61,286 nucleotides of DNA from a virus: positions 1 through 61,286 of IMG/VR virus record IMGVR_UViG_3300038551_000086. The stretch is one strand, 5' to 3'. The position numbers and the translations under genes are program-made. Positions 11,609-46,169 of the stretch are shown here, piece after piece. A model generated the notes under the pieces. The model did no database searches and had not been told where the DNA came from. It saw nothing but the letters and a program-made list of their open reading frames with translations. The stretch's first letter is position 1. The number at the start of each line of letters is the position of its first letter.

Positions 11609-11676
11609 TGGAATTAAAATACACCTTCGATGAAGCATTAAAAAAACTCAATGAAGATAAATTCAATAAGATTTGA
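11608..11676 (+). CDS. Possible 22-aa micro-ORF
   Basis: ATG overlapping the previous TGA, GAGG five bases upstream and a helical charged peptide. It could be a translated leader for the DHH gene, whose SD (GAGAGG) directly follows its stop. Too short for certainty. Confidence 0.35.
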   Translation: MELKYTFDEALKKLNEDKFNKI

Positions 11677-11685
11677 GAGGTTGAA

Positions 11686-24131: not shown

Positions 24132-24626
24132 ATGAAATATCTGTATTTTGTTTTTATAGCGGTTCTTTTGTCTTTTACCGCAAACGCCCAGGTTGTCGGA
24201 ATTGATTTTAATACCTCTGTCCCCACCGGGGATTTCGGCAATACCGTCAATGTAGGCTTTAGCGGCGGGGTGCATGTGGAAGTTCCGGTATTCGGCATGA
24301 CGGGCGTTCTTTACGGCGGTTACGGCTTTTGGGATGAAAAGACTACCCCTATCCCCTCTTTCAGCGTTACCAACTTTCCGGTTATCCTTGCCGGGGCAAG
24401 AAGCTATTACGGGAAACTATATCTGTCAACTTTGGCGGGTATCTACCCGGTAAAAGTAAAGACCGAAGAAATTGAACTCTTAGAGGAAACTCAAGGCGCG
24501 ATACAGGTAGGCGCTGGCTATCTATTCCCGGTTAGTTTCTTCCATCTTGATTTATCAGGGAATTTCTTATGGACGCAGGATTACTCACAGGTTCAATTCG
24601 GCGTGGGTATTCTGCTTAACAAATAA
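24132..24626 (+). CDS. Exported small beta-barrel-like protein
   Basis: 164 aa. Sec signal peptide at 1-20 (K-Y-L-Y-F-V-F-I-A-V-L-L-S-F-T-A-N-A then Q). The rest is short alternating beta strands with aromatic residues (G-V-H-V-E-V-P-V-F-G, Y-Y-G-K-L-Y-L-S) ending in a terminal strand, like small outer-membrane beta-barrels. It sits inside the head-neck module. If made, it would go to the periplasm or outer membrane of the host, so it may block superinfection or be a carried moron. Confidence 0.6.
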   Translation: MKYLYFVFIAVLLSFTANAQVVGIDFNTSVPTGDFGNTVNVGFSGGVHVEVPVFGMTGVLYGGYGFWDEKTTPIPSFSVTNFPVILAGARSYYGKLYLSTLAGIYPVKVKTEEIELLEETQGAIQVGAGYLFPVSFFHLDLSGNFLWTQDYSQVQFGVGILLNK

Positions 24627-27474: not shown

Positions 27475-30267
27475 ATGGCGACAGAAAAAAAATATTTGGC
27501 AATCAAGAAATTCAACGGGGTAAATAGGGCTATCTCAGAAAGAGATTCTCTCGAATTTGCGAATACTCTTGAGAATTTCGATACAAATATAGAGGTGGGG
27601 AAACTTATAAGCAGAGGTGATATAGGACTAATTTCTGCTGCTGCTGCGAATATAGATAAATTTGTGAATTATCGTGATATAGATTGGGGGCGAGACGTTT
27701 TAATCGTTTACGACAAAGACGGTACTGCGGCAGACCGCGACCTTTATGTGTTCACCAAGACATTAGGCGCAAGCGCGACTTATGTGGCGCACTCCACCCC
27801 TACCTACAATTACGGCTCACTGCGATTTGGGGACAACCTTCAGTTTCTCGTTCACCGGAACGGGGTAAGGATAGGGACGGGAACGGCAGCGACAAACAGG
27901 GCGATGTTTGCGGGATATATCAACCGGGAGGTTGACAGTGCTCACGATGCTATGTTTAATGACGTTATCAACTTCTCCGACTTCTTCCTGTTGAAACAAC
28001 AGTGGGTGCAGCAATCCAGCTTTGTCAATCACGGTAAGATTATTTACGATTCGACAAGGGCGAAATACTATGTATTGTCAACTGCCGGGCTGGAAATAAG
28101 AGACACCGATTTTTATATTGAAAGAATCTTAAACGACGTGGTTGTTGAAAGAGTGGGTTCTGGCGGAACAGACACCTATCACGGCGGATTGGCACTAACC
28201 GGGAACTCTCTCTATGTTGTGGGGAATGTGCCGGGCACAGAAGATTACAAGCTAATATTGTATGATCTTTCTGATGATTTGACAATAGACGCATCGGCAA
28301 CGTTGTCAAGTGCTTTCGCTTTGGGTGTAGCGACAAACGGAACTTTGGTGTGGATAACTCGCTATGACGGGGCAGATGGTTATATTGACGAATATTCCGC
28401 AGACTTAGCCAGTAGCAACACCCGCTATACCGGATCAGGTGACAAACTTTTCGGCATTACTTATGATACCACCTATGTTTATGCCTGTGATTACACAAAT
28501 AGTAAAATTTTAAGGATGCCGATTGCCGCACCTTATACTCCGGTAGATACACTTTCAACAGCCGCGGGACCGCTTGACATTGTTCATTATAACGGTGTCT
28601 TGTATTTTATAAGACCTACCGTGGTTTATTCTACTCCGACAACCGGATTCCCCACGACGATAACAACCGAATACACCGACGCGACACAGACAAACGAATT
28701 TATCAGTTTTATTGGCGCAGTCCCTTATTTGTCGCAGAGAAGCGGAAGGATTGTCAAATTTGATAACGGAACTGATTTCAATATTGCGGGATATATCCCG
28801 ACTAAGATAGCAATGGGAAATACCACATCATCCAGCAACGCAGACACTTATTTCTACGGAGTGTCTCTTGTTGACATTTATGGGCAGGAATCGCACTTGC
28901 ACCGGGGATGTGTTGTCAACGGCTCGGCAAACACGCCGGGTGTGCACTTGACAATCAGCGTGAATGTGGACAGTGAACGCTTTGCGGAAATGACCTCACC
29001 ATCGACAAGCGTTGATGCCGCTTTGTCGGTATGGAATGAATTTCGCCGGATAAAAGCGATAAGAGTTTACCGGGCTTATAATGAAGATTCGCAAGCATCA
29101 GAGCCGACTACGGCATACAATTTCCTGAGAGAGATTGACATAAACGATTCAAGCTGGACACAGGTATCTGCAAACGTGCTTTATACCTTTGCGGTTTGGG
29201 ATGGTGTTAATCAAGCGGACATTTCCACCGTCACCTACGAAGAATCAAGCGGACTGCCGGAATCGTTTAAGCCGTATTACACCAATTGGCAATACGGTAT
29301 AGAGTTTGAGGACAGGTATTATTACGGCAACGTCCGCACCGACGAACTCAATCCGCATGAAATTGTTCAAACGCCGATTGATGCGCCGGATGTGGCATAT
29401 CAGCACAGCGAGAATATAGACTACTTCCACCCCGACGACGGGGATGAAATAAAAGGGTTTGCAACCGTCTGGAATCGCTATATTGCCTTTAAAGGGCATC
29501 GGTGCATAGTCTATAACGAGTTAAACAAGGAGAACGGTTACGACATTGGGGTATCTGCGGTAAATGCGATTGTGACCCACAACAACGTGGTTTATTTCAT
29601 TTACGGAAACGGGATATACGCGCTTACCCCATCGGGCTATCAAAGAATCTCAATGCCCGTCGATGAACTCTTAGCGTCGGAAACATTGACAACCGCATCG
29701 GCGGTGTATTATAAAAACAAGAGAAAAATCTGGTTCCATGCCAGCGCGTCTAAGTCTTACCTCTTTAACCATGACGAGGGCACATGGGACGTTTACGACG
29801 TAAACAACGGTGCGGCGTTCAATTTTCCCTATATCGGGCTTGCCCTGGATAACAAGATATTCGGCTCAAATGATGTGAACGACAAAGTGTATGAGTTTGA
29901 TTCAAGTGTTGTCGGGGCTACGCCGGATATGACCGTGAAACTCACGACAAACGATATACCGTTAGGCGACAGTTTCCTGAATTACATTGTGACCCGGTTG
30001 TTTGTTACGTTTCACAGCGATACAGCAAGCGAGGGCTTGACGGTTGCGGTATATTGGCTGAATGAGGACGGATGGCACAACAAGAGCTATACCTTTGCTT
30101 CTTCCGGCACATCGAATGAGACTAAGACCAAGTATATAACCGGGGTAAGAGGGCAAATATTGAGATTTGTTATAAGCGAGGATATAGCAGACAGGCTTTT
30201 AATTGACTCCATCGGGGTTGAGTATTTAGTGCAGAAGTATGACCGAATTTTAAACGTGAGCACGTAA
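27475..30267 (+). CDS. Tail hub / tail stabilisation protein (930 aa)
   Basis: Repeated four-strand patterns from about 250 to 700 (e.g. N-G-V-L-Y-F-I, N-G-T-L-V-W-I, D-T-T-Y-V-Y-A) indicate a beta-propeller. The size and position after the neck proteins resemble P22 gp10 or T7-type tail hub/nozzle proteins. There is no signal peptide. It should form the core of the short tail. The structured RNA ends about 80 bases upstream of its ATG. Confidence 0.65.
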   Translation: MATEKKYLAIKKFNGVNRAISERDSLEFANTLENFDTNIEVGKLISRGDIGLISAAAANIDKFVNYRDIDWGRDVLIVYDKDGTAADRDLYVFTKTLGASATYVAHSTPTYNYGSLRFGDNLQFLVHRNGVRIGTGTAATNRAMFAGYINREVDSAHDAMFNDVINFSDFFLLKQQWVQQSSFVNHGKIIYDSTRAKYYVLSTAGLEIRDTDFYIERILNDVVVERVGSGGTDTYHGGLALTGNSLYVVGNVPGTEDYKLILYDLSDDLTIDASATLSSAFALGVATNGTLVWITRYDGADGYIDEYSADLASSNTRYTGSGDKLFGITYDTTYVYACDYTNSKILRMPIAAPYTPVDTLSTAAGPLDIVHYNGVLYFIRPTVVYSTPTTGFPTTITTEYTDATQTNEFISFIGAVPYLSQRSGRIVKFDNGTDFNIAGYIPTKIAMGNTTSSSNADTYFYGVSLVDIYGQESHLHRGCVVNGSANTPGVHLTISVNVDSERFAEMTSPSTSVDAALSVWNEFRRIKAIRVYRAYNEDSQASEPTTAYNFLREIDINDSSWTQVSANVLYTFAVWDGVNQADISTVTYEESSGLPESFKPYYTNWQYGIEFEDRYYYGNVRTDELNPHEIVQTPIDAPDVAYQHSENIDYFHPDDGDEIKGFATVWNRYIAFKGHRCIVYNELNKENGYDIGVSAVNAIVTHNNVVYFIYGNGIYALTPSGYQRISMPVDELLASETLTTASAVYYKNKRKIWFHASASKSYLFNHDEGTWDVYDVNNGAAFNFPYIGLALDNKIFGSNDVNDKVYEFDSSVVGATPDMTVKLTTNDIPLGDSFLNYIVTRLFVTFHSDTASEGLTVAVYWLNEDGWHNKSYTFASSGTSNETKTKYITGVRGQILRFVISEDIADRLLIDSIGVEYLVQKYDRILNVST

Positions 30268-30798: not shown

Positions 30799-31134
30799 AT
30801 GGCGAATACTTATCAGCAACTTGGACAGGCAAGGGAAAACAGCACGAATGCTGTAAGCGTGTATTCGCCAGGAGCAAGCGAAGAAGTAATTATTAAGCAG
30901 ATTATCGTAGCAAACACAAGCGGAGCAGCAGCAACGGTGAGAATGTTTCACGACAACGACGGTACAACTTACGACGAATCGACAACAGTAGGATGGGACG
31001 TAACGATCCCGGCAAACAGCGTTTGGGATCGAGGCGTAACAATCTGCATGAATAACGCGGCGGGTAACTTCGCTTACCGTTCAAGTGTTGCAAACGCTCT
31101 TACAATAACGATTTACGGCGTAGTAAAAACATGA
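30799..31134 (+). CDS. Beta-sandwich virion protein (111 aa)
   Basis: Pattern I-I-K-Q-I-I-V-A-N-T-S-G-A-A-A-T-V-R-M-F-H-D-N-D-G-T is of the kind found in phage decoration or tail accessory beta-sandwich proteins. No signal peptide. Overlaps the next gene by four bases. Confidence 0.55.
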   Translation: MANTYQQLGQARENSTNAVSVYSPGASEEVIIKQIIVANTSGAAATVRMFHDNDGTTYDESTTVGWDVTIPANSVWDRGVTICMNNAAGNFAYRSSVANALTITIYGVVKT

Positions 31135-32429
31135 GAAAACTAATATACATTTTCCTGTTACTGAGCGCGGTTGCTTACGCGCAAAGCAGCATCATTTTAC
31201 CGGAGACCAAAGACCGGGAAGTAAAGGCGCAGGATTCCTTTTCGATTGACGCTTTCGGGCGGTGGCGGGTATCTGAACCCTTTACCCTGTTTGACAGCAA
31301 GCAGCTTACTGATTCTGCCGCCTTGTTTTGGGACGACCAGGAAACCGACAGTTCTATCTCTGAGTATGTGGATAATTACGCCGCTACCAAAATGAAAGTG
31401 GCGGATACCACATTGGGAACGCGCACCCGGCAGACCAAAATGAGATTCAACTACCAGCCGGGTAAATCTCAATTAATTCTCCTTACCTTTTCCAACATTA
31501 AGAGCAAAGCCGGGATTACCAAACAGGCGGGGTATTTCGACGACAGGAACGGGATATTTCTGGAAAGCCGCAATGACAGCGTTTTTGTAGTCCGCAGAAC
31601 CTACGTCACCGGGAGCGCGGTAGATAATGAGGTATATCAAACAAGTTGGAATCTCGACACCATGAAGGGCACAGGCACTTCCGGGGTGACGCTGGACTTT
31701 ACCAAAACTCAAATATTTTTAATCGACCTGGAATGGCTCGGAGTCGGGCGGGTAAGATGCGGTTTTGTGGTGGACGGGTTTATCTATTACGTGCATGAGT
31801 TTAACAATGCAAACAGTTTGAGCACCGTTTATATGAGCACGCCGAATTTGCCCTTGCGTTATGCAATCTCAAACGATTCAACGGCAATGGCAGACAGCAT
31901 GTATCATATTTGCTCAAGCGTTATCAGCGAGGGAGGGCAGCAGGAAAACGGGGTATTGCGCTACAAGTCCACCGAGGGAACGAATCAGAACGCCGACGTG
32001 GAAAACACCCTGTATTCGGTATTGGGAATAAAGCTAAAATCGACCCATTTAGGCTCGGTGGTGAAGTTGGTAAATGTAGCCTTGCAGGTGCATACGGCAT
32101 CTTCCAAATGTGAGTGGGTATTGTTATTAAACCCGACCATTGCCGGGGCTAAGACGTGGGCGGATGAAACCAACAGCGCGGTACAGACCTTTGCGGGAGT
32201 AACGGCAAATACGGTAACGGGCGGGTATGCGATAACCGGGGGATTTGTCGAAACCGGGGGCGTAGCGGCTGGCGGGGCGGGATCGGTGCAGAGTTCAATA
32301 CAAAACGCAATTTACTTAGGCTCAACCATCGCCGGGGTGTCGGATTCAATTGTTGTGGCGGTGAGACCGATTGGCGGAAGCACCCTTGTTGACGTGGAAG
32401 GGGCTTTGACATGGAGAGAATTACAATAG
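31131..32429 (+). CDS. Virion-like protein with Sec signal peptide (432 aa)
   Basis: The N-terminus is a signal peptide (K-L-I-Y-I-F-L-L-L-S-A-V-A-Y-A then Q). It is followed by S-I-D-A-F-G-R-W-R-V-S-E-P-F-T-L-F-D-S-K, a motif I know from tail-associated virion proteins of marine podoviruses and siphoviruses, normally without a signal. Mature domain beta-rich. Expected to be exported in the host if the signal works; the virion route is then unclear. Confidence 0.65.
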   Translation: MRKLIYIFLLLSAVAYAQSSIILPETKDREVKAQDSFSIDAFGRWRVSEPFTLFDSKQLTDSAALFWDDQETDSSISEYVDNYAATKMKVADTTLGTRTRQTKMRFNYQPGKSQLILLTFSNIKSKAGITKQAGYFDDRNGIFLESRNDSVFVVRRTYVTGSAVDNEVYQTSWNLDTMKGTGTSGVTLDFTKTQIFLIDLEWLGVGRVRCGFVVDGFIYYVHEFNNANSLSTVYMSTPNLPLRYAISNDSTAMADSMYHICSSVISEGGQQENGVLRYKSTEGTNQNADVENTLYSVLGIKLKSTHLGSVVKLVNVALQVHTASSKCEWVLLLNPTIAGAKTWADETNSAVQTFAGVTANTVTGGYAITGGFVETGGVAAGGAGSVQSSIQNAIYLGSTIAGVSDSIVVAVRPIGGSTLVDVEGALTWRELQ

Positions 32430-32439
32430 GAGCAATAGA

Positions 32440-32910
32440 ATGGCAAGTACTATTACAGCAGCAAGTTTAGTAGTAACGATTACGGAGAGTATTTTTTTAA
32501 ACGGCAAAGATCACGGCGCGGAGAACACCTTGACGCTTACGAGCATTAATGAAGTGACCAAGAGAATTGTCACCGTCCCGACAAGCGAAGTGATTCTGAT
32601 AGCATTTTCAACCGCAGTGGCAGCCGGAACTTTCGTCGAGAGCACCGTTAAGTATATCCGAATCACTAACAAAGACGACACCAATCACGTCGGGTTGATC
32701 TTCAGAAATGAGGACAGCGACGAGTTCAGCATTAAGCTGGATAAAGGGCAGTCGTTCATTTACAACGGCGACGTGTCGGGCGGTGTGGTTGACACGATGG
32801 ATGCGGCAGCGACCGCAGTAACGCCGAACACCTTTGCCGACCTTGTGGATATAACCGCAATCGCAGACACGGCATCGGTGGATGTTGAAATCTTTATTGC
32901 AAGCACATAA
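32440..32910 (+). CDS. Virion beta-sandwich protein (156 aa)
   Basis: Thr/Ile/Val-rich, with a pattern seen in phage head or tail decorating proteins (F-V-E-S-T-V-K-Y-I-R-I-T-N-K-D-D-T-N). No signal. SD GGAG directly before ATG. Confidence 0.5.
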   Translation: MASTITAASLVVTITESIFLNGKDHGAENTLTLTSINEVTKRIVTVPTSEVILIAFSTAVAAGTFVESTVKYIRITNKDDTNHVGLIFRNEDSDEFSIKLDKGQSFIYNGDVSGGVVDTMDAAATAVTPNTFADLVDITAIADTASVDVEIFIAST

Positions 32911-32924
32911 GAGAGGTAATAAAC

Positions 32925-33551
32925 ATGGCATTACCAGCAATTTTAGCAGGAATAGGTACTGGGATCGGGGCGCTTGGTTCATTATTCGGAACAGGCAGCA
33001 AGACCGAGATTCCGCCGGAACTCCGGGAAATTTACAACCTTCTGATGCAGCAGTCACAGGAAGGCTTATCAGACCGCACCGTTGACATGCTATTGCGCCG
33101 CGCGAAAACCGGGCTTGGCAATGAAGCCGGGGCATTGGGCGCAATGACCGAGGCAAGGCTTACCCGCCAGGGCGCGGGGACGGGCGTAAAACAGTCCGCA
33201 TTGAGCCGGATAAACGAACAGCGATTACGCGGCATCGGGGATGTGACAACTCAGGTAGGGTTAGCCGACGAAGAAGCGAAACAAGCCGCCTTGCGCCAGT
33301 TAGCGCAGTTAGCGCCGATGTTTGGCGACCCGAACTTTAAGAGCCAATACGGGCAGGGCTTCGCAGACCTGCTACAAGGAGGCTTGAGTTATCTTCTGAA
33401 TCAACCGGGAAAGCAACCGGCAGCCGCACCCAATCCGATACTTGACGCAGTGAATGAATTTCTTTACCCGTCAACTCAAAACCCGATCCAGGTACAGCAA
33501 CCGAATGTAAACCCGACACCTTACTTATTGCAGTTTGGCGGAGGCAAATAA
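32925..33551 (+). CDS. Internal virion / DNA ejection-type protein (208 aa)
   Basis: Gly/Ala-rich hydrophobic N-terminus (residues 3-22, L-P-A-I-L-A-G-I-G-T-G-I-G-A-L-G) without a cleavage site, then an amphipathic helical body and a Gln/Pro/Asn-rich C-terminus. This layout fits small ejection proteins in podoviruses (gp7/gp14-like). Followed by a Gln-rich helical gene and the 2143-aa giant. Confidence 0.6.
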   Translation: MALPAILAGIGTGIGALGSLFGTGSKTEIPPELREIYNLLMQQSQEGLSDRTVDMLLRRAKTGLGNEAGALGAMTEARLTRQGAGTGVKQSALSRINEQRLRGIGDVTTQVGLADEEAKQAALRQLAQLAPMFGDPNFKSQYGQGFADLLQGGLSYLLNQPGKQPAAAPNPILDAVNEFLYPSTQNPIQVQQPNVNPTPYLLQFGGGK

Positions 33552-34283
33552 ATGGCAGAGAAACTTGAGAGAACCCGAACACCTGACCGCTTGCAGGGCG
33601 CGGAGAACGCTTCACGTGCAATCGCCAACGTGCTCAACTTTACATTAGGGCAACAGATACAGCGAGAGCAGCAGCGCAAGGCGTTAGAAGCGGTTGCACA
33701 GGAGCAAGAGTTTAAGAAAGCGTTGCAACAGCAGGAGCAGCAAGCGGCGTTGTCGCGGTTGCAATCTGACCTTGCTCACCGGGCGGTTGCAGACCAACGG
33801 GCGCGGGATTTGGAACGGCAAAAGTTAGACGAGATGGCGCGGCACAACAAGGCAATGGAAGCGTCAGAAGCGGAACAAGCAAGGGCTTTAGCACAACAAC
33901 GCCGGGAATTAGCGGCGAGAACAAAGCAGGACGCGGTTGTTGAGAGCCTGTCAAAGTCGATGAAAGACCGCATTGATCGCCTTGATATACTTTACGGTTA
34001 CGGCAACGATCCGGCAGCACAATTACAAGTGCAACAGATATTGAAAGAGATACCTATCATTCAGAGGCAGCTTGACGCGGTAAGATCGGGCGGGGCTATT
34101 TCACCCGACTTTATGCAGCAAGTAGAGCAGACAACAACACCGCAACAATTCCCGGTAAGAGAAGAATTTGGTATATATACCCCTCCGGGACCAAGTTTTG
34201 CCATGCCGCAGACATACGGCGATTTGGAGAAAACAGCAAAAGGCGCAGCCGAACAACCTAAATCTAAGCCGAGGCTCTATTAA
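33552..34283 (+). CDS. Gln-rich coiled-coil protein, ejection type (243 aa)
   Basis: Residues 20-150 form a continuous charged/Gln-rich coiled coil; the C-terminus is Pro-rich. It ends one base into the giant gene's ATG. Likely a core or ejection protein co-packaged with its neighbours. Confidence 0.55.
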   Translation: MAEKLERTRTPDRLQGAENASRAIANVLNFTLGQQIQREQQRKALEAVAQEQEFKKALQQQEQQAALSRLQSDLAHRAVADQRARDLERQKLDEMARHNKAMEASEAEQARALAQQRRELAARTKQDAVVESLSKSMKDRIDRLDILYGYGNDPAAQLQVQQILKEIPIIQRQLDAVRSGGAISPDFMQQVEQTTTPQQFPVREEFGIYTPPGPSFAMPQTYGDLEKTAKGAAEQPKSKPRLY

Positions 34284-37200
34284 TGCCCGAAGAAATCCTA
34301 AAAAAAGTCTATGAAGGCGGATCGAAGTATTACGATCTGGATGATTACGACACTTTCAAACGGAAGATGCAAGACCCCGCAATCAGACGGAAAGTTTATG
34401 ATGGGTTGTCTCAGTATTATCAACTTGACGATTTTGCTAAGTTTGAAACAGATATAGGGATTCAGGCGAAGCCAAAGGAAAGCGAAAAAGATATTGGTTT
34501 TTTTAAGGCAGTCGGAAAAGCGTTATATCCAACAAGGTCATTTAGCCCGGAGGTGGTTAAGAAAGAGGGCGGGGACATAATTTCTTTAAACACAGTTGGG
34601 GAAACAGCCTTGAACGCTCTGATGTTGCTATCTGATTATATTCCTTCATCTTTTTTCCCCACAAGAAGCGGACCATATAAGGGCGTTAAAGAGACCATCC
34701 CGCAGGCTATTGCAAGAAGAAAAGAAAGATGGGAAACACTTTCGCCGGAAGAACTACAAACATCAGGGCAGGCTTTTCATTATGCACAGGGCGGAGTAGT
34801 TCAACCTCTTAGCCCGGAGATGGCTGAGGGTGTGGGCAAACAAGCCACTGAATTTATAGCCGACCCCCTTTGGATTCCTGGAATCAAAATAACCAAAGCT
34901 GGAATAGGGGCAATCTCAAGGGCTATGAAAGCTATGAAGGCGGGTAAAGAAGCTGACGCAATTAGAATAATCGGCAAGATCGAAGGAGTTACCGCCAACC
35001 AAGCCGACGAGTATGTAAAATTCTGGACAGCGCCGGAGAATAAGGCGAAATTGGATGAAGCTGAGGCGATAGTCAACAAGAGAGCGTTTGATGCAGAGAA
35101 AGTCGGCAAGCCGGAACTTGAGGCTTTAAACGAACGGCTTAGAACACAGGAACGATTAACCCGCTTAGGAAAACAGACCGAGGAAATGGCTGGAAGCCGG
35201 GTGATACTCGGACCCAACGAAGAAAGAATAACTATCCGACCCGACGGAAGCCGGATTATCCGCGATAAATACGGCAATCTGATTGAAGAAATACCGTCCG
35301 CTAAAGCAACGCCCGAAGATGTAGCTGTGAGAGAGAAATTAAGAGAAGCGGCGGTAAGAGAGAAGAAGCCCGAAGCCCCTACCCCGCTTGAACAGCTGAC
35401 CACCAAAGTCAAAGCAGGTGAGGCTACCGGCGAAGAAATCAAGACCTTTGTCAAAGAAAGCGAACCCGCAACGGTTGAGAAAGCCGAGCAGATATTAAGA
35501 AAGGCGCACAAGGAAGCTAAGACACCCGAAGAAGGTTCTGACATTGCTAACGGCATTGACGTATTGACACAGGCAAGCGGTAAAAAGCCGAAAGTGCCTA
35601 CGCCAAAAGCGCCACCTAAAAAAGCTCCAATATCTAAAAAGGTAGAAAAAGAATATCAGGCGGGGAGGGCAAGCGCAGAAGCCAATATACAGGAAAGAGG
35701 GGAGCAATTCGCAAGGAATATGGCGAAAAAGCCGGGATATGGAGCAACAGAAGAAATACAAGCGTATTGGAAGGGCTATGCCGACGTGCTGGATGAAGCA
35801 AGAGCACCCGCAAAAAAAGTGGCAACGAAGGGAGAATTAACACCTTATGAAAAATCAGCCAAAGGCGCACCATCGGGAGCGCAGAAGGTGACAACTGCAA
35901 TCGGGCGCGATCCGAATTTGCGATTGCTTGACAGCGAGATTGAGGGAATATACGGCAAGGGTACGAAAGAAACCGAGGACTTGATTAGGAAAATTGGCGG
36001 TGGCAAAAGAACCCTTGACGATGTTTCCCGCGAATTGCAGGAAGCTGGAACGATTGCACCCGCACCGCAGGACTATAATTCACAGCACCTTATCAATTTG
36101 ATTACCGAAGATGCGCCGACAGTGGCAAAGGCAGAGCGACAGGCGGAGAAAGCGGCAGAGCAGGTTTTCGGCAAGACAGCGAAAAAAGCACCGAAGGTTC
36201 AAGAGCGACCTACTCCCCCAACGCCGACAGGGGCAAAAGAGAATATCGCTTACAACAATTTTAAAGAGGGCGACAAGTTTACTGTTGACGGTGAGGAATT
36301 TACTGTTACAAGCAAGATGATTGAGAATGACGGTGAAGTAGTAGGTGTCAGGCTTAAAGACCGAAAGAATTACGAGCAAGATTTAACAGATTGGAAGTCA
36401 GGTGTTGATATTGACGAAGGCAGTTTAAAGAAAGCGGGGGCAGAGCCTACACCTGCAATAGAACTTACAGCCTTTAAACCAAATCCCAAATTGCCAGATT
36501 GGTTAAATGATGCAATGTTGAGAGAGGGCAAAAATCCAAACAGACCTTTCAATGAGATAGATATTACAAATAAGTCGGTAAGAGATGCCATAGAAGCCGA
36601 TCCATCCTTGACAAGGAAAGAGAAAGATTCTTTGTTGAAAACCGGCTCAAGGCAAGAACCTACACCTGCACCGAAGGCGGAAACACCCGCTAAACCGGAG
36701 ATCGTCGAACCTGAGCAGGCTGGGACGGCAAAACAGGGCGTTTTAGGGGAAGGCGAGACTGCACCCACACCGAAAGCCGAGCCGATTGAACAAGTCACAA
36801 AAGGGAAAAAGGAGTTTCCAAAGAATTTCAGAGAATTATTGCCAGAAGAACAAGGGGCACTTGTCGTTGACACCTTAGAAAAAGGTGAAATAATAAAGGT
36901 TGGCAATACTGAATACAAAATAACAAGCAAGACTCCCAAGAAGATAACCATAAAAAATTTAAAAACAGGGAAATCCGGCACTATTTATAAATGGGGCAAT
37001 CAGAATGTTGCATGGATGAAAACAAAGAATGACGGGACAGCGACAGGATTTTTTAGAGACATTGAATCTGATATAACAAGAAGCCTTATAAGTGAAAAAA
37101 ATATATTCGGGCAAGTCAAAACAGAAGCCTACAATAGAGCAATAAAGAGGTTCGATGAATTAAAAAGTCAAGCAAAGCCCAAAGCCGAGCCTACCCCCAT

Positions 37201-40200
37201 CGAGCAGGTGACGAAGGGGAAAGAATTGAAAGAAGGCGAATCTATCCCCTTGCAGCGCGGCACGAAAGAGTTTACCGAGCAACAGGCGAAAGCGGGAAAG
37301 AAACCCGCAAAGCTCACCAAACAGCAAAAGAAAGAAAAGTTTGCTAAGAAGCTGGAAGAAGGAGAATACAAGGGGGATATGTTTGTTGAGGAAGGCAAAG
37401 CGCGACAGACTTCTTTGCTGGAAAAGGAAAAGCCGACACCGCTTGAACAGGTGGCAAAACCGACCGCAGAGTTGAATTATGCAGACAGATGGAATAATAG
37501 CCTAAAATTGGGCAGAAAGGTTGAACTCGTTAAGGGCGGGAAATGGGTAACGAATAAAGGCGGATTGTCAAAACTTGGTGAGAAAATTGCCGAATCAAAA
37601 TGGGAAGATATTTCACCCGCAGCGCAAAAAGTTTTACAACGGGAAATTGATAAATTTTACAAGACCGCTAAAGCTACACCCGTCGAACAACTCACCGCGC
37701 CTAAACAGACCTTCCGCCAGTTTGTCGAGAGCAAGGGTGTAGAGTGGGATCAGGTTAGCGGGGCAAGGAAAGATGAAGTGTTGCGGCAACGGTTGTTTGA
37801 CGAATTTCAAGGGAAGAAACCGGAAAAGGTGAATGTGACATTTACCAATCTGCAAGAGATACCGGGATCAAAAAAGGCTACGATAATGGTTGACCTGCCG
37901 AGCAAGACAACGGTAGGTTATGATGCTTCTCGTCATATCTTGAGTGATGCGGAAAAAGCGAAACTCAACAAGGCTATACAAAAAGGCGGATTTGAGGGCG
38001 CGGTTGAAGAACCGGAATTCTTGCTTATGATGAAAGATTACAAGCCCAAGAAAGCAAAGACAGGCAAAGAGTTTGCCGAGGGCTTACTTGACGCGGCGAA
38101 AAAGGATATATTCGGGCAGGAACTCGGCATAACTCCCGATCCTTACCGCAACCTGAAGAAGTTTCTCGATGAAAACAAGCTGAGGCTCACCGATGCCGAG
38201 CGCAAGAAACTGATGGATTTCGCCAGTGGCGTAGCAAAGCGCGGATTGCTTACAGCAGAGAAACGCCAGCAGTTGATTGATGAATATATTGCCAAAAACT
38301 TTACGCGGACACCGGAAGGGATACCGACAGCGAAAACGGGAGAAACGCCGCTCGAGAGGTTGACTAAGACAGAGCCGATAACTCCGGCAGTCACAGAAGC
38401 GACAGAGGGAACGGTAAAGAAAGTTAAGCCTAAGACTTTCCGACAGCTTGAGAATAAGTGGAAGCAGCCGATGGGCGAAGGGAAACCGACTACACCTGGC
38501 TATAATGTTGAGAAGATGCACCCGGCATTGAAAGACGAATTGCCGCAGATAATTGAGAATTTCCGGGAAGAATTTAACTTGATGCGCGGGGAACGGCTTA
38601 CCACCGAGCAAGCTATTGATTCGGCTATTAAATTCGCCGGGAATCTAACAGACGATGCAGTAATGACCCTGAAACGCTCAGACGTAACAAATGCGTCCCA
38701 CCTGCTCGGCGCAAGAATTTACGTCAACAACCGATTGCTTGAGATTTCCGACAAGTTGGCTGCCATACCGAAAGACGCAAGCGGTAAATTAATCGGTGAA
38801 ATTACCGCAGAGAATAAGCACGTTCTTGATATGTATATGAAAGTCCGATCATTGGGAACAGAAACAGCAAGGGCTTTGCGCTTTATGCAGATACCGATGG
38901 GCGACAACCTGATAAACGGGATGAAAAAATACCGTGACGTTCTTGCGAAAATTGATCCCAAGTCTGCTAAGGTATTATCGGATGTTATTGCCGATGCCGA
39001 AAAACTTCCCACTAAAACCGATGCAATACTATTCTGGTGGTATAACGGTATGTTGTCAAACCCGTTTACCGACCTTGCAAACATTACCGGGAACGCTTCA
39101 CATCTTACGTGGGAAATAATGACCAATATGGCTCATAAACCATCGTCCATAAAGCAAATGTTCAAGGGGCTTTGGGAAGGTTCAAAGGAAGGCGTGAAGC
39201 AAGCAAAGGCAATTTACAATCAGGAAAAAGAATTGTTAAGCAAGTTTTCCGGGGACATTGGACGGGCAAGGTATGACGTATATCCTAAGACGAAAGTCGG
39301 TAAATTTCTGAGGAGTACTCTACCAACAACCCGACTTGCGATGGAAGATGCAATATTTTCAAACATGGCTAAGCAAATGAGAATCGGGGTTGAATCTCCG
39401 ATACTGGCTAAAAAATTCGGCACTACCGTTGACGATGTTTTAGAAACCGTAAAGAATGTTATCGAAAATCCTGAGTTTGTAGCAGGAGCGAATGATAAGG
39501 TGTATAGAGACTTAGCTGAATACGCCGAGAAATACGCTGAATATTTGACCTTTAGAACGCCGCTAAAGAGCAAGTTCATGCAGGGAGCGCAGCAAACGCT
39601 TTGGGTTAAGCCGTTTATTCCCTTCCCGCGCGTAATGGCAAATATCGCAAAGGCGGGATTTAAAAACTCCCCGGCTGGAATTATAAAATTTTTCGGCAAA
39701 GATGCAAAGACGCTATCCGCTTTTGAACGGCAGGATATAGCAAGACGGGCTTTGGCGGGGACTGCGGTGTTTTCGGGATTGGGCACAATGATGGCGGCGG
39801 GAAAGATTGAGATAACCGGATCGGGACCGGAGAGCAAGAAAGAGCGCGAATTATGGGACAAGATGGGATACAAGCCGAATCACATCTACATCGTTGACGG
39901 TGACGGTTCAAAGACCGGAATATCCTATCAGAACATAAACCCGTTTAACGTGATTCTTGCGGTAATGGGTAACTGGCAGGATCAGTACCGTTTCGGGAAC
40001 AAGCTCACCGACGACGAGAAAACCCTTACCGAGAGGTTGAGTTATGCCCTTGCCGGGGCAGCGGCAACCATGACCGATCAGAGCTTTATGCAGGGCATAT
40101 CAAATCTATACGACTGGATCAGGTATAAAGACGAGGGATATTTAGAGGACTTCTTTACCAAACCGTTTATCCCAAACATTGTCGGATTTCCGCGAAACTT

Positions 40201-40714
40201 GCGGGAATATGTTAGCGGGGAAAAGCCGAGATATGAAGCAAGAACATGGTGGGAACGGCTTAAAAGGAGAGTCGGGTTGTATGAAGGGCTGATACCGACT
40301 TACAGCGCATACGGCGGACAGAAAGAAAGCGGTTATGAAAGATTCCCCTACTTCCCTACTGATATTGAGAGAGACCCGCTATTGGAAAATCTCAGGGGTA
40401 AAAATGCTTTAATCAGTGTTCCGTCAAAAAATACAAGCATAAACAACCGGAAGATAACCGATAAGGAATACTCTGATTATGTCAAGTTTAGCGGCAATGA
40501 AATAATCAGCAAACTAAGACAGAATCAGAACGAAATTTTGAAGATGAACGCGGAAGATACGCAGGACTACATTGACAACATCGTGAGAAATGCGCGGAGG
40601 AACGCAAAGGAAACCATTGAAAACCGATCAGGCGGGGCATTGCAGCAACTCACCAAACCGCGAAGCAGGACAAGACCGAGACCGACAAGACCAAGAAGGG
40701 CAAGAGTAAGATAA
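34283..40714 (+). CDS. 2143-aa giant virion/ejection protein (large polyvalent-type)
   Basis: The N-terminus has two copies of a K-V-Y-[ED]-G-x-S-x-Y-Y-x-L-D-D-[YF] motif within residues 8-55, as in other giant phage proteins of the large-polyvalent class. Residues about 120-700 and 740-1400 are segments of predicted helix separated by Pro/Lys-rich linkers, several of which repeat P-x-P-[LIV]-E-Q-[LV]-[TA]. The final about 700 residues are long helices and include hydrophobic stretches (about 1820-1860). The last 15 residues are Arg/Pro/Thr-rich. It is probably ejected with the genome to form a channel, or carries enzyme modules. No catalytic motif is clear to me. Confidence 0.6.
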   Translation: MPEEILKKVYEGGSKYYDLDDYDTFKRKMQDPAIRRKVYDGLSQYYQLDDFAKFETDIGIQAKPKESEKDIGFFKAVGKALYPTRSFSPEVVKKEGGDIISLNTVGETALNALMLLSDYIPSSFFPTRSGPYKGVKETIPQAIARRKERWETLSPEELQTSGQAFHYAQGGVVQPLSPEMAEGVGKQATEFIADPLWIPGIKITKAGIGAISRAMKAMKAGKEADAIRIIGKIEGVTANQADEYVKFWTAPENKAKLDEAEAIVNKRAFDAEKVGKPELEALNERLRTQERLTRLGKQTEEMAGSRVILGPNEERITIRPDGSRIIRDKYGNLIEEIPSAKATPEDVAVREKLREAAVREKKPEAPTPLEQLTTKVKAGEATGEEIKTFVKESEPATVEKAEQILRKAHKEAKTPEEGSDIANGIDVLTQASGKKPKVPTPKAPPKKAPISKKVEKEYQAGRASAEANIQERGEQFARNMAKKPGYGATEEIQAYWKGYADVLDEARAPAKKVATKGELTPYEKSAKGAPSGAQKVTTAIGRDPNLRLLDSEIEGIYGKGTKETEDLIRKIGGGKRTLDDVSRELQEAGTIAPAPQDYNSQHLINLITEDAPTVAKAERQAEKAAEQVFGKTAKKAPKVQERPTPPTPTGAKENIAYNNFKEGDKFTVDGEEFTVTSKMIENDGEVVGVRLKDRKNYEQDLTDWKSGVDIDEGSLKKAGAEPTPAIELTAFKPNPKLPDWLNDAMLREGKNPNRPFNEIDITNKSVRDAIEADPSLTRKEKDSLLKTGSRQEPTPAPKAETPAKPEIVEPEQAGTAKQGVLGEGETAPTPKAEPIEQVTKGKKEFPKNFRELLPEEQGALVVDTLEKGEIIKVGNTEYKITSKTPKKITIKNLKTGKSGTIYKWGNQNVAWMKTKNDGTATGFFRDIESDITRSLISEKNIFGQVKTEAYNRAIKRFDELKSQAKPKAEPTPIEQVTKGKELKEGESIPLQRGTKEFTEQQAKAGKKPAKLTKQQKKEKFAKKLEEGEYKGDMFVEEGKARQTSLLEKEKPTPLEQVAKPTAELNYADRWNNSLKLGRKVELVKGGKWVTNKGGLSKLGEKIAESKWEDISPAAQKVLQREIDKFYKTAKATPVEQLTAPKQTFRQFVESKGVEWDQVSGARKDEVLRQRLFDEFQGKKPEKVNVTFTNLQEIPGSKKATIMVDLPSKTTVGYDASRHILSDAEKAKLNKAIQKGGFEGAVEEPEFLLMMKDYKPKKAKTGKEFAEGLLDAAKKDIFGQELGITPDPYRNLKKFLDENKLRLTDAERKKLMDFASGVAKRGLLTAEKRQQLIDEYIAKNFTRTPEGIPTAKTGETPLERLTKTEPITPAVTEATEGTVKKVKPKTFRQLENKWKQPMGEGKPTTPGYNVEKMHPALKDELPQIIENFREEFNLMRGERLTTEQAIDSAIKFAGNLTDDAVMTLKRSDVTNASHLLGARIYVNNRLLEISDKLAAIPKDASGKLIGEITAENKHVLDMYMKVRSLGTETARALRFMQIPMGDNLINGMKKYRDVLAKIDPKSAKVLSDVIADAEKLPTKTDAILFWWYNGMLSNPFTDLANITGNASHLTWEIMTNMAHKPSSIKQMFKGLWEGSKEGVKQAKAIYNQEKELLSKFSGDIGRARYDVYPKTKVGKFLRSTLPTTRLAMEDAIFSNMAKQMRIGVESPILAKKFGTTVDDVLETVKNVIENPEFVAGANDKVYRDLAEYAEKYAEYLTFRTPLKSKFMQGAQQTLWVKPFIPFPRVMANIAKAGFKNSPAGIIKFFGKDAKTLSAFERQDIARRALAGTAVFSGLGTMMAAGKIEITGSGPESKKERELWDKMGYKPNHIYIVDGDGSKTGISYQNINPFNVILAVMGNWQDQYRFGNKLTDDEKTLTERLSYALAGAAATMTDQSFMQGISNLYDWIRYKDEGYLEDFFTKPFIPNIVGFPRNLREYVSGEKPRYEARTWWERLKRRVGLYEGLIPTYSAYGGQKESGYERFPYFPTDIERDPLLENLRGKNALISVPSKNTSINNRKITDKEYSDYVKFSGNEIISKLRQNQNEILKMNAEDTQDYIDNIVRNARRNAKETIENRSGGALQQLTKPRSRTRPRPTRPRRARVR

Positions 40715-40741
40715 CAATTTAATTAAAGGAGCAAGAGGGCA

Positions 40742-41263
40742 ATGAAAACACTGTTATTTTTAATCTTAATGAGCGTAGCAATTTGGGCGCAAACGGCAGT
40801 CAAGACCGTCCCGCAGAGTCACGATTGGATAAGGATTTATGACGGGTTGCTTGGCGACAACGGCGACGGAGTGGACACTACCGATGCCTTTTCACCGAAG
40901 CAATGGGAAGGCGTACTAACCTTAGCTTGTGAAATCGACACGGGCGATGTTGACGTTAGCGGAACGCCGGATAGCTGCCTTTCGGTCTATTTCCAGATCA
41001 AGCGCAGATATGTATATCCGGGAAATCAAGCAGTTGACCAGGATTGGATGGGCTACTACGACGGAACCGATGTGACAAAGGTTAAGATTGATACCGTAGC
41101 GCGGAGCGTAATAAACACGGATGCTTGCTTGTTTTACATGAACCCGGCAGCCGAAATGTCAACCACCGGAGAGTGGGCTTGGGCGGATAGCATCAGGTTC
41201 ATTTTGGGAATCGGCGTAGGTGATAGTCTTGAGTCCGTAAAGTTAGACGTGGGAGGTCAATAA
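40742..41263 (+). CDS. Exported protein with Sec signal peptide (173 aa)
   Basis: Signal peptide 1-17 (L-F-L-I-L-M-S-V-A-I-W-A then Q). Mature domain all beta with D-S-C-L-S-V-Y-F-Q-I, no known family. AAAGGAG precedes the gene. First of the post-giant exported set. Confidence 0.6.
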   Translation: MKTLLFLILMSVAIWAQTAVKTVPQSHDWIRIYDGLLGDNGDGVDTTDAFSPKQWEGVLTLACEIDTGDVDVSGTPDSCLSVYFQIKRRYVYPGNQAVDQDWMGYYDGTDVTKVKIDTVARSVINTDACLFYMNPAAEMSTTGEWAWADSIRFILGIGVGDSLESVKLDVGGQ

Positions 41264-41655
41264 TGGCACGTAACGTAAGACCACTATTCGGCACAGATTA
41301 CAGCTTTTCCGAATCTTCCGGCACTTCCAACATTAACGGCACGAAGATTGTCAACGATTATCCCCCTTCCGCTAACAACGTGGCGAGTATTTTCATCCAT
41401 TCTGACGGGGCAAGCGTGACCTCTATCGAGATGGGAATATATTGCCAATTTTGGAGTGGCGTGGATTGGGGACCGTTACACGCGGTTATCGACGAAAACG
41501 GGGCAGCAATCACGATAGACCCGTCTGAGGATGAAGATCGTGACGCAGACCTCTACGGGCAACCCTGGTGGAAGGAGAATGACGGATGGAGGATTGTCTT
41601 AACAAGGGCAAACCCGACAACCATAGCGGGACAGGCAACCGCAATAATAAGGTGA
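41263..41655 (+). CDS. Unknown beta-rich protein (130 aa)
   Basis: No signal peptide. Pattern S-F-S-E-S-S-G-T-S-N ... V-A-S-I-F-I-H-S-D-G suggests a beta-sandwich. ATG overlaps the last base of the previous stop. Perhaps the virion-bound partner of the exported proteins around it. Confidence 0.5.
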   Translation: MARNVRPLFGTDYSFSESSGTSNINGTKIVNDYPPSANNVASIFIHSDGASVTSIEMGIYCQFWSGVDWGPLHAVIDENGAAITIDPSEDEDRDADLYGQPWWKENDGWRIVLTRANPTTIAGQATAIIR

Positions 41656-41659
41656 AAAT

Positions 41660-42736
41660 ATGAAAAAATTAATCTTTCTGATTGTGCTTTTGGGGATTGC
41701 GGCGGAGGCGATAGCACAGACACCGCTACCCCGGAAAAGAACGCAGTGGCTCGATTTGTCGGAAGCGGTAAAAGACTCAATCCGGGCAAGCGGTTATGTT
41801 TTCCCTGTCCCATCCGATAGTGTTTCTCCCGATACGTCCTATGTATCTGCCGACTCCGGGCTTGGCGGGGGCGGATGGTTAGAGTTGGGTGATTCCGTAG
41901 GTGTGCACGTCAACGTGGACAGCGTGACGATTGACATTCTTAATGATACTCTCCGGGCGGATACATTGCGATTGGTTACAATCACCGCTTTGATTGACAC
42001 TATTGCAACACTATACCCGATACCGCACGATTCGCTTGATACCGACACAATTTGGGTTAGCGCCGATAGCGGTTTAGGAGGCGGAGGATCGGTTGAATTA
42101 GGCGATACCATAGGCGTTCACGTCAACGTAGATAGTGTAACAATAGACATTTTAAACGATACCTTGCGAGTTGATACAACCAGAATAGCAACCTTGCCCG
42201 ACGTGAGCGACAGTTCACAATACTATTACTGGCGTTCCGTCAGCCATGACCACTACCCCTCTTATGGCAACCTTGTCCCATGGGATTTGAACGACTACCA
42301 GACCGATCAAGACAGCGTATTTATCTGTTTCTGGCAGGAAGCGGCGACACTCAAGCCCTATATCGAAATTAAAGCGGATAGCGCAAGCACCGATAGCCAA
42401 TACGTTCACCTTGTTTATTCTTTCACTGCACCGAGAAATGTTTCCGCCATTAGCGATACTTTGTTTATTGTCGAGTTTAAAACATCGGTGGCGGATACCG
42501 ATTCGGTGGGTTGTGAGTTGCTTGTTTACGAGGGCACAACGGCAAGATACGCGACAGATACAATGACCGCTTCAGCGACATGGACGACAAAAGCGATTAC
42601 AAACGCTCAGGGTACATTATCCGACATCGTAAAAGAGGACAGATTTCAGTTGATTATAAGGGTGAAGGCTCTTAATTCCTCTGCGGCGGTTGACCCGACA
42701 ACCTGGATTTCACGGATCAGGGAAAGGTGGTGGTAA
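41660..42736 (+). CDS. Exported fibre-like protein with tandem repeat (358 aa)
   Basis: Signal peptide 1-20 (L-I-F-L-I-V-L-L-G-I-A-A-E-A-I-A then Q). Two copies of a roughly 70-aa unit (about 50-118 and 120-178) share S-A-D-S-G-L-G-G-G and V-H-V-N-V-D-S-V-T-I-D-I-L-N-D-T-L-R. The C-terminal half is a beta-sandwich-like domain. This fits a fibre made by internal duplication. Confidence 0.6.
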   Translation: MKKLIFLIVLLGIAAEAIAQTPLPRKRTQWLDLSEAVKDSIRASGYVFPVPSDSVSPDTSYVSADSGLGGGGWLELGDSVGVHVNVDSVTIDILNDTLRADTLRLVTITALIDTIATLYPIPHDSLDTDTIWVSADSGLGGGGSVELGDTIGVHVNVDSVTIDILNDTLRVDTTRIATLPDVSDSSQYYYWRSVSHDHYPSYGNLVPWDLNDYQTDQDSVFICFWQEAATLKPYIEIKADSASTDSQYVHLVYSFTAPRNVSAISDTLFIVEFKTSVADTDSVGCELLVYEGTTARYATDTMTASATWTTKAITNAQGTLSDIVKEDRFQLIIRVKALNSSAAVDPTTWISRIRERWW

Positions 42737-44646
42737 TGAGAGTTCTTTTATCGTTGCTTATACCCTGGCTTCTTTTCGCTCAAATAGGGGTAGTAGATAC
42801 CTTTTATACGGGTGACGGGGATGGCACGACAGACCCGCGTACCGTGTTAACTGCGACGGATAGCGTGAAACTTGTTCTCGTGACCGCCTGGAATGTTGCC
42901 CTGTTTCCCGGCTGGAAAACGCCGGATATGAGCAATGTGACGCAGAGTGTTACAGGCTTTGCAACTACAACATCCGGAGGTATAGTCATAACCGGAACAG
43001 GAAATACTCAAGTCCAAGTGGATAGTTCGTGGGATGGACTTAATATACTACATCATGTCACCGCCTTTTACGGTGAGTCTGTTCATCACGGAACATTTGC
43101 CGGAACAGGTTCGGGGGTTAGAGTGGAGACCGGATTTCAACCGAGATGGTTGTTTATTTCTGAACATGGCGTAGGAACAACTCAGGAATTTGCGGGATAT
43201 TGGTATACAACAATTGGTGATCTAACCCACAACGTGGACGGAACAGCGATAAATTGCAAACGTGACTCCACCGGATTTACTCTCGCAACCACTACCGGAG
43301 GTCATACCTACTATTGGGTAGCCTTTTCCAGCAGCCCAAACTACTTTTATGGGGAGTATCTTGGGGATGGGACAGATGATCGGTGGATAGACATAGATAA
43401 TGAGGTTGAGTTTTTATATGTGACCGCACCAAACGAAAGTGACGCAGGGGCGGGAGTGCAGGGAACATGGAAATCACGAGATATGTTCTTGATTGACACT
43501 TGCGGTATTATGTCAAATGATCCGGGATATGAGCAAGACCGGATACAGGAAATAGACAATTCAAATACTCAGTTTCAGGTTGGAACTGTATCTAATAACA
43601 AGAACGAAGTTTATCTTTATTGGGGGATAACAACCACTGTCGATACTGTTTTACCAAAAATTTATGTAGATATGAACTATAATGAGGTTCAAATAACCGG
43701 GAACGGAAATGCAACAAGGGCGGTTAGCCTCGGTTTTCAACCGGATGTAGTTTTTATTGCACCGAGTGAGGGTGCAACGTCAAGAGTATATGCAAAGTCA
43801 TATGAAATGGGCGGTGACAGCGCAATGGCTTTGTATGATTCCACCTTGAAATCAGACAGATGCACTATTACGTCAACGGGGATTACCCTCGGTAGTCATC
43901 TTAACAAGAATACAATAGTGTATAACATTTCCGCCTTTGACTCAGACACTAATGGAGTTTTAGCGGGAAGATATGTGGGAGATGGGACATTTAGGAGAGA
44001 AGTAAATTTAACGGAGAACTTTCGTCCAGCCGTTGTATTTACGATGGCTAACGACGATACCCTATTCGGAAAGGTGAAATCATTGAGTCTTGGCGGAATA
44101 GATACATTAAGCGCAAATACATACGACGATGCTCTCGGCGGGAATGGGATAAAAGTATTAAATCACAACAAGTTTATTACAGGAAATGGTATTTATATTA
44201 ATAAAAGCGGTATTACTTACCACTGGATAGCTTTTGCGGAAGGTCAATGGTTCGACGGGTATAACTTTGCCGGAAGCGGTTCGAGTAATGTTCAAAAGGC
44301 GATCAGCAACTTATTTCAAGGCGACATTTATACAATATATGAGCATGGAAATTATGTTGACAGCGAAGCACTTTGGAAAAATTTCGATTTCGCCGTGAAC
44401 AGCGCGGCGCAAATTGCGGGGGCATACGTAACAAATCAACTTGATACAGTAACCGCTACATATTTCGTAGTGGATGAAAACATAAACAGTAATTATCTTG
44501 GAATAGACTTTTATTGGTTTGCTCTTGGTGGATATGAAGCGCCGGGCGAGGAAACTCCGACCGGGCAAGACAGACGACAACCGTGTGATGGAAATGCGAC
44601 AATCCTTAACAAAGAGGGTGTACGGTGGAAAGACAAATACAAATAA
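42736..44646 (+). CDS. Exported large fibre-like protein (636 aa)
   Basis: ATG 42736 opens a signal peptide (L-L-S-L-L-I-P-W-L-L-F-A then Q). The body has recurring F-x-P-x-x-[VL]-F-[IV] units such as G-F-Q-P-R-W-L-F-I-S and G-F-Q-P-D-V-V-F-I-A, suggesting about four repeats of a beta domain as in phage tail fibres. Overlaps the next gene by 22 bases. Confidence 0.6.
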   Translation: MRVLLSLLIPWLLFAQIGVVDTFYTGDGDGTTDPRTVLTATDSVKLVLVTAWNVALFPGWKTPDMSNVTQSVTGFATTTSGGIVITGTGNTQVQVDSSWDGLNILHHVTAFYGESVHHGTFAGTGSGVRVETGFQPRWLFISEHGVGTTQEFAGYWYTTIGDLTHNVDGTAINCKRDSTGFTLATTTGGHTYYWVAFSSSPNYFYGEYLGDGTDDRWIDIDNEVEFLYVTAPNESDAGAGVQGTWKSRDMFLIDTCGIMSNDPGYEQDRIQEIDNSNTQFQVGTVSNNKNEVYLYWGITTTVDTVLPKIYVDMNYNEVQITGNGNATRAVSLGFQPDVVFIAPSEGATSRVYAKSYEMGGDSAMALYDSTLKSDRCTITSTGITLGSHLNKNTIVYNISAFDSDTNGVLAGRYVGDGTFRREVNLTENFRPAVVFTMANDDTLFGKVKSLSLGGIDTLSANTYDDALGGNGIKVLNHNKFITGNGIYINKSGITYHWIAFAEGQWFDGYNFAGSGSSNVQKAISNLFQGDIYTIYEHGNYVDSEALWKNFDFAVNSAAQIAGAYVTNQLDTVTATYFVVDENINSNYLGIDFYWFALGGYEAPGEETPTGQDRRQPCDGNATILNKEGVRWKDKYK

Positions 44647-46169
44647 TCTTACTTATGCTTTTACTTTCGGTATTTGTAAAAGCGCAGATATTTACTGAGA
44701 CCTTTAACAGTTTCACCTGGTCTTGGGCGTATGGGACAGCAGGTTGGAACTTCGGTGGAGCAGCATCTGGGTATGATACTGTAAACTCTGGCACATATAA
44801 CTTAACAAGATCAGCAGGATTCTCTGTAAATTGGGCATCAGAAACAGTTTCTGGTGGCATAATAGACTCGGCTGGAACATATATAACATTCGACGGATCA
44901 AGTGAGTATATGACCAGCACAAATGCTATTTTCAACCCCGGAACAGATGATTTCTGGATTTTAGGTGCACTAAAAACACCCGCGTCTATGCCAACTTCCG
45001 CTAAATACATAATTAACAAATACAGAGCAGCCACAGACAATGGATGGTCGATATTTTTTTATGATAATATCGTTTATTCCAAAATAGAACATGATCCGGT
45101 AATTGCCCCAGGCGTGACTGTTCCCGCAGATAAATCTATCTTTTTCGCCAACTTAATGGACAGAAGCGGGAACGGAACTTTCAGGGTTTGGACAGGAGAT
45201 AGTTTGTTAGCCATTGGAACGGCAGATATAAGTAGCAAATCAGGAGTTAATATTACATCAGCTACCGCTATGACCATAGGAACGTATGCGTATACTCCTG
45301 CCAACAATGAGTTTGACGGTTGGATGGATGCTCTTTGGTTTGGACGTGGGACTTTACCAACTCTTGAGCAAATATGTGCCGAGTTCTTTTTAGCTGATGG
45401 ATGGTATTCGGATACAGATAGTTCCGGGGCGATAAGGGATAACTTTGGTTGGCATCAGGGAGTGACTTGCGGAGTAGCTACGCCACAAATAACAATTGCT
45501 ATAATAGGAACAGAAGGATTGCAACCGGCAGATTATACAGATTACGCAACTATTACAGGTGACTCTACTACTTACACTATACAGTTCCCCTTAATTGACA
45601 GTTTAAATAGCGATGCAATTAGATTCGATATTGACAGCGGGGATATGAGCGATATTAACCATGCCCTACCTGATACTGTTTTTCAAGAAGGTTATGGTTT
45701 ACAAGTTAAGTTTGATTGTTGGTCTAATCCTGGAACTACCAGCAATTATTATGTGTTGTTTGATAATGTAGTTGTGACGACATATCTTCTTAATCCTGAA
45801 ATAAGTTCAAGCCCCGCAAGCAAAAATTTTGGCAATATCGTTGTAGGTGACAGTTCATCTCAAGTGTTTACAATAAGCAACACAGGAGCAGACCCGCTAA
45901 CGGTTACGGATATTAATTGGGTTACAGCCGCACAGGTGAGCGTTTCCGATACCGCTTTTACGGTAGATACAAGCGGGACGCAGAATATAACAGTGTGGTT
46001 TAAGCCTCAGTCAATCGGTGCGAAATTGGATACATTGACAATCGTCAACAATGATCAGGATGAAGGGAACTTTACAATTCCATTATCCGCAAACGGAATC
46101 TTGCCGACAGCAGGAAACACATTTAGAAAATATCCAAGCGCAAACAGCAATAAATTCAAAGGTTGGTGA
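44625..46169 (+). CDS. Exported protein with lectin-like and ASPM/Hydin-like domains (514 aa)
   Basis: Signal peptide 1-21 (I-L-L-M-L-L-L-S-V-F-V-K-A then Q). A LamG/concanavalin-type domain at about 85-260, then a strand-rich section, and an Ig-like repeat at about 395-495 with S-S-P-A-S-K-N-F-G-N-I-V-V-G-D-S-S-S, typical of ASPM/SPD-2/Hydin domains of FCB surface proteins. A short basic C-terminus is not the usual sorting domain. Likely binds glycans. Confidence 0.65.
   Translation: MERQIQIILLMLLLSVFVKAQIFTETFNSFTWSWAYGTAGWNFGGAASGYDTVNSGTYNLTRSAGFSVNWASETVSGGIIDSAGTYITFDGSSEYMTSTNAIFNPGTDDFWILGALKTPASMPTSAKYIINKYRAATDNGWSIFFYDNIVYSKIEHDPVIAPGVTVPADKSIFFANLMDRSGNGTFRVWTGDSLLAIGTADISSKSGVNITSATAMTIGTYAYTPANNEFDGWMDALWFGRGTLPTLEQICAEFFLADGWYSDTDSSGAIRDNFGWHQGVTCGVATPQITIAIIGTEGLQPADYTDYATITGDSTTYTIQFPLIDSLNSDAIRFDIDSGDMSDINHALPDTVFQEGYGLQVKFDCWSNPGTTSNYYVLFDNVVVTTYLLNPEISSSPASKNFGNIVVGDSSSQVFTISNTGADPLTVTDINWVTAAQVSVSDTAFTVDTSGTQNITVWFKPQSIGAKLDTLTIVNNDQDEGNFTIPLSANGILPTAGNTFRKYPSANSNKFKGW

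Follow-up and report, generated by a model that had tools for sequence, protein, structure and literature searches.

The particles of tailed phages are taken to be built wholly in the cytoplasm. The window analysed here, the full 61,286 nucleotides of an uncultivated phage contig (virus record IMGVR_UViG_3300038551_000086, G000), carries predicted export signals on several genes of its late virion operon. Do these proteins leave the cytoplasm, and if so, do they still become parts of the particle?

Signal peptides in the late operon

The first-pass annotation had described Q-type signal peptides on six genes, named here by their first positions (24132, 31131, 40742, 41660, 42736 and 44625), and a simple home-made rule (not SignalP) recovered all six at those starts. 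In each, an n-region with basic residues leads into a hydrophobic core free of charges, and an AxA-like site stands before the +1 Gln. The predicted signals are MKYLYFVFIAVLLSFTANA in 24132, MRKLIYIFLLLSAVAYA in 31131, MKTLLFLILMSVAIWA in 40742, MKKLIFLIVLLGIAAEAIA in 41660, MRVLLSLLIPWLLFA in 42736 and MERQIQIILLMLLLSVFVKA in 44625, every one directly followed by Q; the n-region of 44625, which starts with GTG, is less basic. For 42736 an ATG start was preferred over a GTG at 42727, and upstream ribosome-binding sites back the starts of both 42736 and 44625. Gene 14411 begins with MRNKTKWYLLGAAIAIVLFVGYNVALS followed by E and is a probable seventh case; its homologue in a sister phage (see below) has a Q-type site, AMA before Q.

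When N-termini were shuffled, 0.26 signal-like calls per genome were obtained, with no Q-type call in 200 trials. None of 181 internal Met segments scored as a signal, and the chance of Gln at +1 in at least six of seven cases is P about 2e-8, given the Gln frequency of the proteome. Gln at +1 is the established Q-rule of Bacteroidetes for substrates of signal peptidase I (SPI) (PMC5837995, PMC10653852). The six named genes share the features of such substrates, with an SPI-type signal and, at +1, Gln in 6/6 and Cys in none. The +1 Gln and the glycosylation sequons described below point to a Bacteroidota-type host.

Two other routes were rejected for the tagged proteins. Lipoprotein routing does not fit the +1 Gln of all six, and no lipobox was found; for T9SS routing, there was no Pfam or NCBIfam hit to a C-terminal sorting domain. 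The five fibre-like proteins, that is, all of the six except 24132, show no barrel either. Having no lipobox, type-IX tail or barrel, these five should therefore be soluble in the periplasm.

The signal-bearing genes sit in the late virion operon, several of them between its head and tail genes (Table 1). Inside the range 31131-46169, genes 32440, 32925, 33552, 34283 and 41263 have no signal. Of the six genes initially assigned to this range, 24132 lies outside it, near the head genes, and is predicted to be a beta-barrel.

Two further gene pairs were recognized in the window. Between virion genes, the minus-strand ORFs 25244-25879 and 26769-27281 are related and read like HNH/AP2-type homing endonucleases; the former gave no Pfam hit, and at both ORF sites the sister phage lacks corresponding gaps. 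A family-2 glycosyltransferase (8546-9448) and a sulfotransferase (9412-10044) are encoded next to each other and are possibly glycan-modifying.

Table 1 Coordinates of the window features discussed in the text.
Feature	Coordinates	Strand	Remarks
Probable seventh exported protein	14411..15505	+	Hydrophobic N-terminal segment 14411-14491, ALS followed by E; upstream of terminase gene
Major head protein	22178..23188	+	phrog_9953, E 5e-32
Probable 8-stranded outer-membrane barrel (OmpX/Ail/Lom-like), predicted exported	24132..24626	+	Signal 24132-24188, Gln at +1
Virion-module protein without signal (contrast), late operon	27475..30267	+	Sister phage 67% identical
PHROG_1645 virion-structural homologue, predicted exported, lectin-like beta-sandwich	31131..32429	+	Signal 31131-31181; 7 sequons
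Small protein, predicted exported	40742..41263	+	Signal 40742-40789; 4 sequons
Fibre-like protein with internal repeat, predicted exported	41660..42736	+	Signal 41660-41716; 18 sequons
Repeat protein, predicted exported	42736..44646	+	Signal 42736-42780; 8 sequons
Protein with ASH / choice-of-anchor-D domain, predicted exported	44625..46169	+	Signal 44625-44684, GTG start; 8 sequons

Families, folds and relatives of the tagged proteins

The product of 31131 matches PHROG_1645 (“virion structural protein”) across its mature length (residues 31-430, E 7e-86) and is the single copy of this family in the window phage. PHROG_1645 homologues occur in cyanophages and in Puniceispirillum phage HMO-2011. 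An AF2 model of the protein (pLDDT 87) has lectin-like beta-sandwiches from about residue 35 onward, leaving the first ~30 residues, with the signal, outside the modelled fold. Among solved structures the receptor-binding domain of TM4 gp23 ranked first, and many lectins of the concanavalin type came next.

Across the PHROG_1645 loci that were compared, a convincing signal was confined to the window lineage, L033, L111 and a second copy on contig G009. Nearly all other PHROG_1645 homologues, from viral contigs and genomes, had short or unrelated N-termini. Absence of the signals from close relatives had been named at the outset as an argument against export. In the sister phage (contig 3300007363_000036), whose 31131 homologue is 87% identical, the signal is still present and has changed only synonymously. 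Because this phage keeps the signal and more distant relatives lack it, sequence comparison identifies the signal of 31131 as a lineage-specific gain. The sister homologue of 24132 is 43% identical in alignment, lies at another genome position and has a Q-type signal of its own.

A lectin-like fold, as modelled for 31131, would also suit proteins that are exported and then freed at or before lysis, neither in the virion nor bound to the envelope, such as soluble glycan binders or scavengers. Gene 44625 matches an ASH / choice-of-anchor-D domain, a type typically seen in proteins that bacteria secrete, and no anchor was found. Against such a free role, 31131 belongs by homology to a virion structural family, and in other contigs signals of this kind occur on S74-type fibres, tailspike-like proteins and proteins of tail structure. 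We regard it as improbable.

For 24132, the AF2 model had eight long strands at low confidence (pLDDT 45), and the best Foldseek matches of this low-confidence model were OmpX, Ail, NspA and OprF. Judged from the model, the protein is probably an OmpX/Ail-type outer-membrane barrel and not a fibre. Lom, encoded by phage lambda, belongs to the same class. With respect to gene order, a signal-bearing gene of L155 (1154-1603) directly follows a probable head-protein gene, a location comparable to that of 24132 in this phage and of gene 8699 in L020.

The modelled likeness of 24132 to OmpX/Ail favours a second alternative, in which the proteins, once exported, remain at the host envelope and form no part of the virion. 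Here 24132 would be an outer-membrane barrel, and the fibre-like proteins would be periplasmic or surface-bound lectin-like decoys, blocking a second phage or binding released particles. This alternative has to be taken seriously, most of all for 24132, even if we consider it rather unlikely. Contig G009 encodes two PHROG_1645 copies, one with and one without a signal, which would fit a separate role for the exported one; in the window phage, however, 31131 is the sole PHROG_1645 gene, and a virion role, if needed, would have no untagged substitute. Outer-membrane modification has been suggested for phages of Porphyromonas gingivalis (PMC10367356), but the five fibre-like proteins of the window lack any lipobox, T9SS domain or barrel, and several tagged genes are placed among head and tail genes. 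Surface display or exclusion, raised in the first-pass annotation, is plausible for 24132, while the five fibre-like proteins have no anchor for it.

Relatives of 40742, 42736 and 44625 were absent from the viral contigs and phage records searched, apart from a short stretch of 42736 that matches a protein of one related phage contig. Searches with Pfam/NCBIfam-type domains, PHROG families and phage records found no homologue of 40742, and 41660 weakly matched PHROG 15277/15005, which are phage families with no assigned function. Because relatives were not found, the virion placement of genes 40742-46169 is suggested by their position and composition.

Candidate modification sites and other phage lineages

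O-glycans of Bacteroidota attach at D-[S/T]-[ALIVMT], a motif enriched in noncytoplasmic proteins (PMC12871550). The five tagged fibre-like proteins contain 45 such sequons where shuffling predicts 12.6 (z 9.7), an expectation blind to secondary structure, which is partly addressed by control motifs (n = 6), flat in these proteins, and by the untagged beta-rich proteins (13 vs. 9.6). Without the repeat-rich 41660, the tagged fibre-like proteins still had 27 sequons against 9.3 expected. Virion proteins of this phage that lack a signal had 21 (18.9 expected). Seven sequons each were found in 31131 and its sister homologue, the mean across 47 homologues being 1.3, and the sites in 31131 are mostly not common to homologues.

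The unrelated contig G009 (3300048839_000196) had 45 sequons in seven Q-type tagged proteins (20.3 expected, z 6.0) and 45 in its untagged proteins (50.9 expected). Its PHROG_1645 copies, one tagged and one untagged, are distant. Two Q-type proteins elsewhere, the PHROG_1645 copy of L048 and one in L020, had no sequon enrichment. A general enrichment in virion proteins of Bacteroidota phages was rejected, with 141 sequons against 138 in five isolated phages (~40,000 residues). Since neither the untagged proteins nor the isolates were enriched, the enrichment tracks the signal and not the fact of being a fibre of a phage of such a host. By motif enrichment in a predicted noncytoplasmic set, the tagged proteins of the window would count as candidate O-glycosylation substrates.

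The restriction of the sequon enrichment to tagged proteins and the retention of the signal in the sister phage thus support export of the fibre-like, virion-family proteins of the window phage. Export together with extracytoplasmic modification of the tagged proteins is well supported in silico. The signals were called by a simple rule, and the N-terminal segments could instead be captured sequence or uncleaved hydrophobic anchors with no functional export. This is hard to hold against the host-type +1 Gln in 6/7, the different signals of the sister phage in which the Gln is kept, and the modification-site enrichment that two unrelated phages show in their tagged proteins only; we consider it very improbable.

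In a third lineage (L015, L016 and L127), non-Q signals occur on runs of genes that adjoin the PHROG_1645 gene or genes close to it. The tagged genes there include homologues of phage stabilization / tail structure proteins of isolates, with the homology beginning after the signal. In L015 and L016 the tagged proteins that contain Cys, 11 in total, each have an even number of Cys residues (two more tagged proteins have none), compared with nine even and five odd counts among the untagged proteins (one-sided hypergeometric about 0.04, with small numbers). A hairpin Cys pair is conserved between L015 and L016 and absent in four untagged isolate homologues. This pattern is consistent, in small numbers, with real export in disulfide-forming hosts. 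Even Cys as an export mark was rejected for the window, whose exported proteins do not have even counts; it was seen only in L015/L016 and L127. In L111 an S74-type fibre gene carries a signal, and by our own reading of the sequence a signal-bearing gene of L029 is tailspike-like.

The label “amidase” of PHROG_5107 looks wrong, with L015:14353-15945 and L016:2254-3843 matching phage stabilization / tail structure proteins. L161, from contig G010, has at 10723-12294 a Q-type signal on what we read as a subtilisin-like protease, in a phage contig.

Signals as a general trait of Bacteroidota phage virion proteins were rejected for Cellulophaga phages phi14:2, phi38:1 and phiST. The structural proteins of phi14:2, verified by MS/MS, had no signals, nor had their counterparts in phi38:1 and phiST, which had been assigned from similarity; this argues against export being general. 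Small proteins with Q-type signals do occur in isolated Cellulophaga phages, as gp001 of phi14:2 (KC821624) and at 31090-31383 of phi38:1 (KC821614). In a prophage search for the host, the head protein gave no match in five genomes, and a PHROG_1645 profile search of 395 genomes matched only the centre genome.

Proposed route and comparison with known systems

The reading we favour, with about even confidence, is that this tailed phage exports fibre-like proteins, which are modified by the host outside the cytoplasm and joined to the particles at lysis. The late fibre-like proteins, one of them a virion-structural homologue, would cross via Sec in a Q-rule (Bacteroidota-type) host. Signal peptidase I would cut the signal and expose Gln, host glutaminyl cyclase would convert it to pyroglutamate, and the host O-glycosylation system would modify D-[S/T]-hydrophobic sites extracytoplasmically. 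The anchor-free fibre-like proteins would remain periplasmic until lysis opens the inner membrane and would then join DNA-filled particles; the 24132 barrel would insert in the outer membrane instead. Translocation, cleavage, cyclisation, glycosylation and attachment at lysis are all steps that we infer. For homologues of particle components that are predicted to be soluble in the periplasm, joining particles at lysis would be the simplest role, and this phage encodes no untagged version of 31131.

More tentatively, and with somewhat less than even confidence, we propose that in several unrelated lineages of tailed phages the maturation of fibre and even tail-structure proteins is extracytoplasmic, with modifications suited to the host, the particles being completed only after the inner membrane is breached. 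The modification would be Q-rule processing plus O-glycosylation in Bacteroidota-type hosts, and disulfides in others. If true, host glycosylation would be tied to phage assembly and to host-range proteins, and hypothetical phage proteins could be found by a signal combined with sequons or cysteine pairing.

A limited search of openly available literature found no report that tailed phages export virion-family proteins, nor any phage protein named as a substrate of O-glycosylation in Bacteroidota. The junction of Ala and Gln is in itself not new: phage proteins following the Q-rule are known, but not as virion-protein homologues (PMC10367356). Five are encoded by the P. gingivalis phages (candidate family Nixviridae), with no function assigned (PMC10367356). 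They share with the window set the SPI signals exposing Gln, whereas the latter includes one virion-structural homologue, lies in the virion operon and is enriched in O-glycosylation sequons. Compared with the Q-rule substrates of Bacteroidetes (PMC5837995), signal and +1 Gln are the same, on host proteins there and on tailed-phage fibre-like genes here. The motif is likewise that of the general O-glycosylation of Bacteroidota (PMC12871550), the sites here being candidates predicted from sequence. With the PHROG_1645 proteins of cyanophages and HMO-2011, 31131 shares homology over the full length of its mature part; nearly all members of the family are signal-free, and the window lineage has added about 17 signal residues. 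Finally, 24132 resembles the 8-stranded class of lambda Lom and OmpX/Ail-type phage proteins and sits in the late operon, a likeness that comes from a low-confidence fold model and not from a sequence match.
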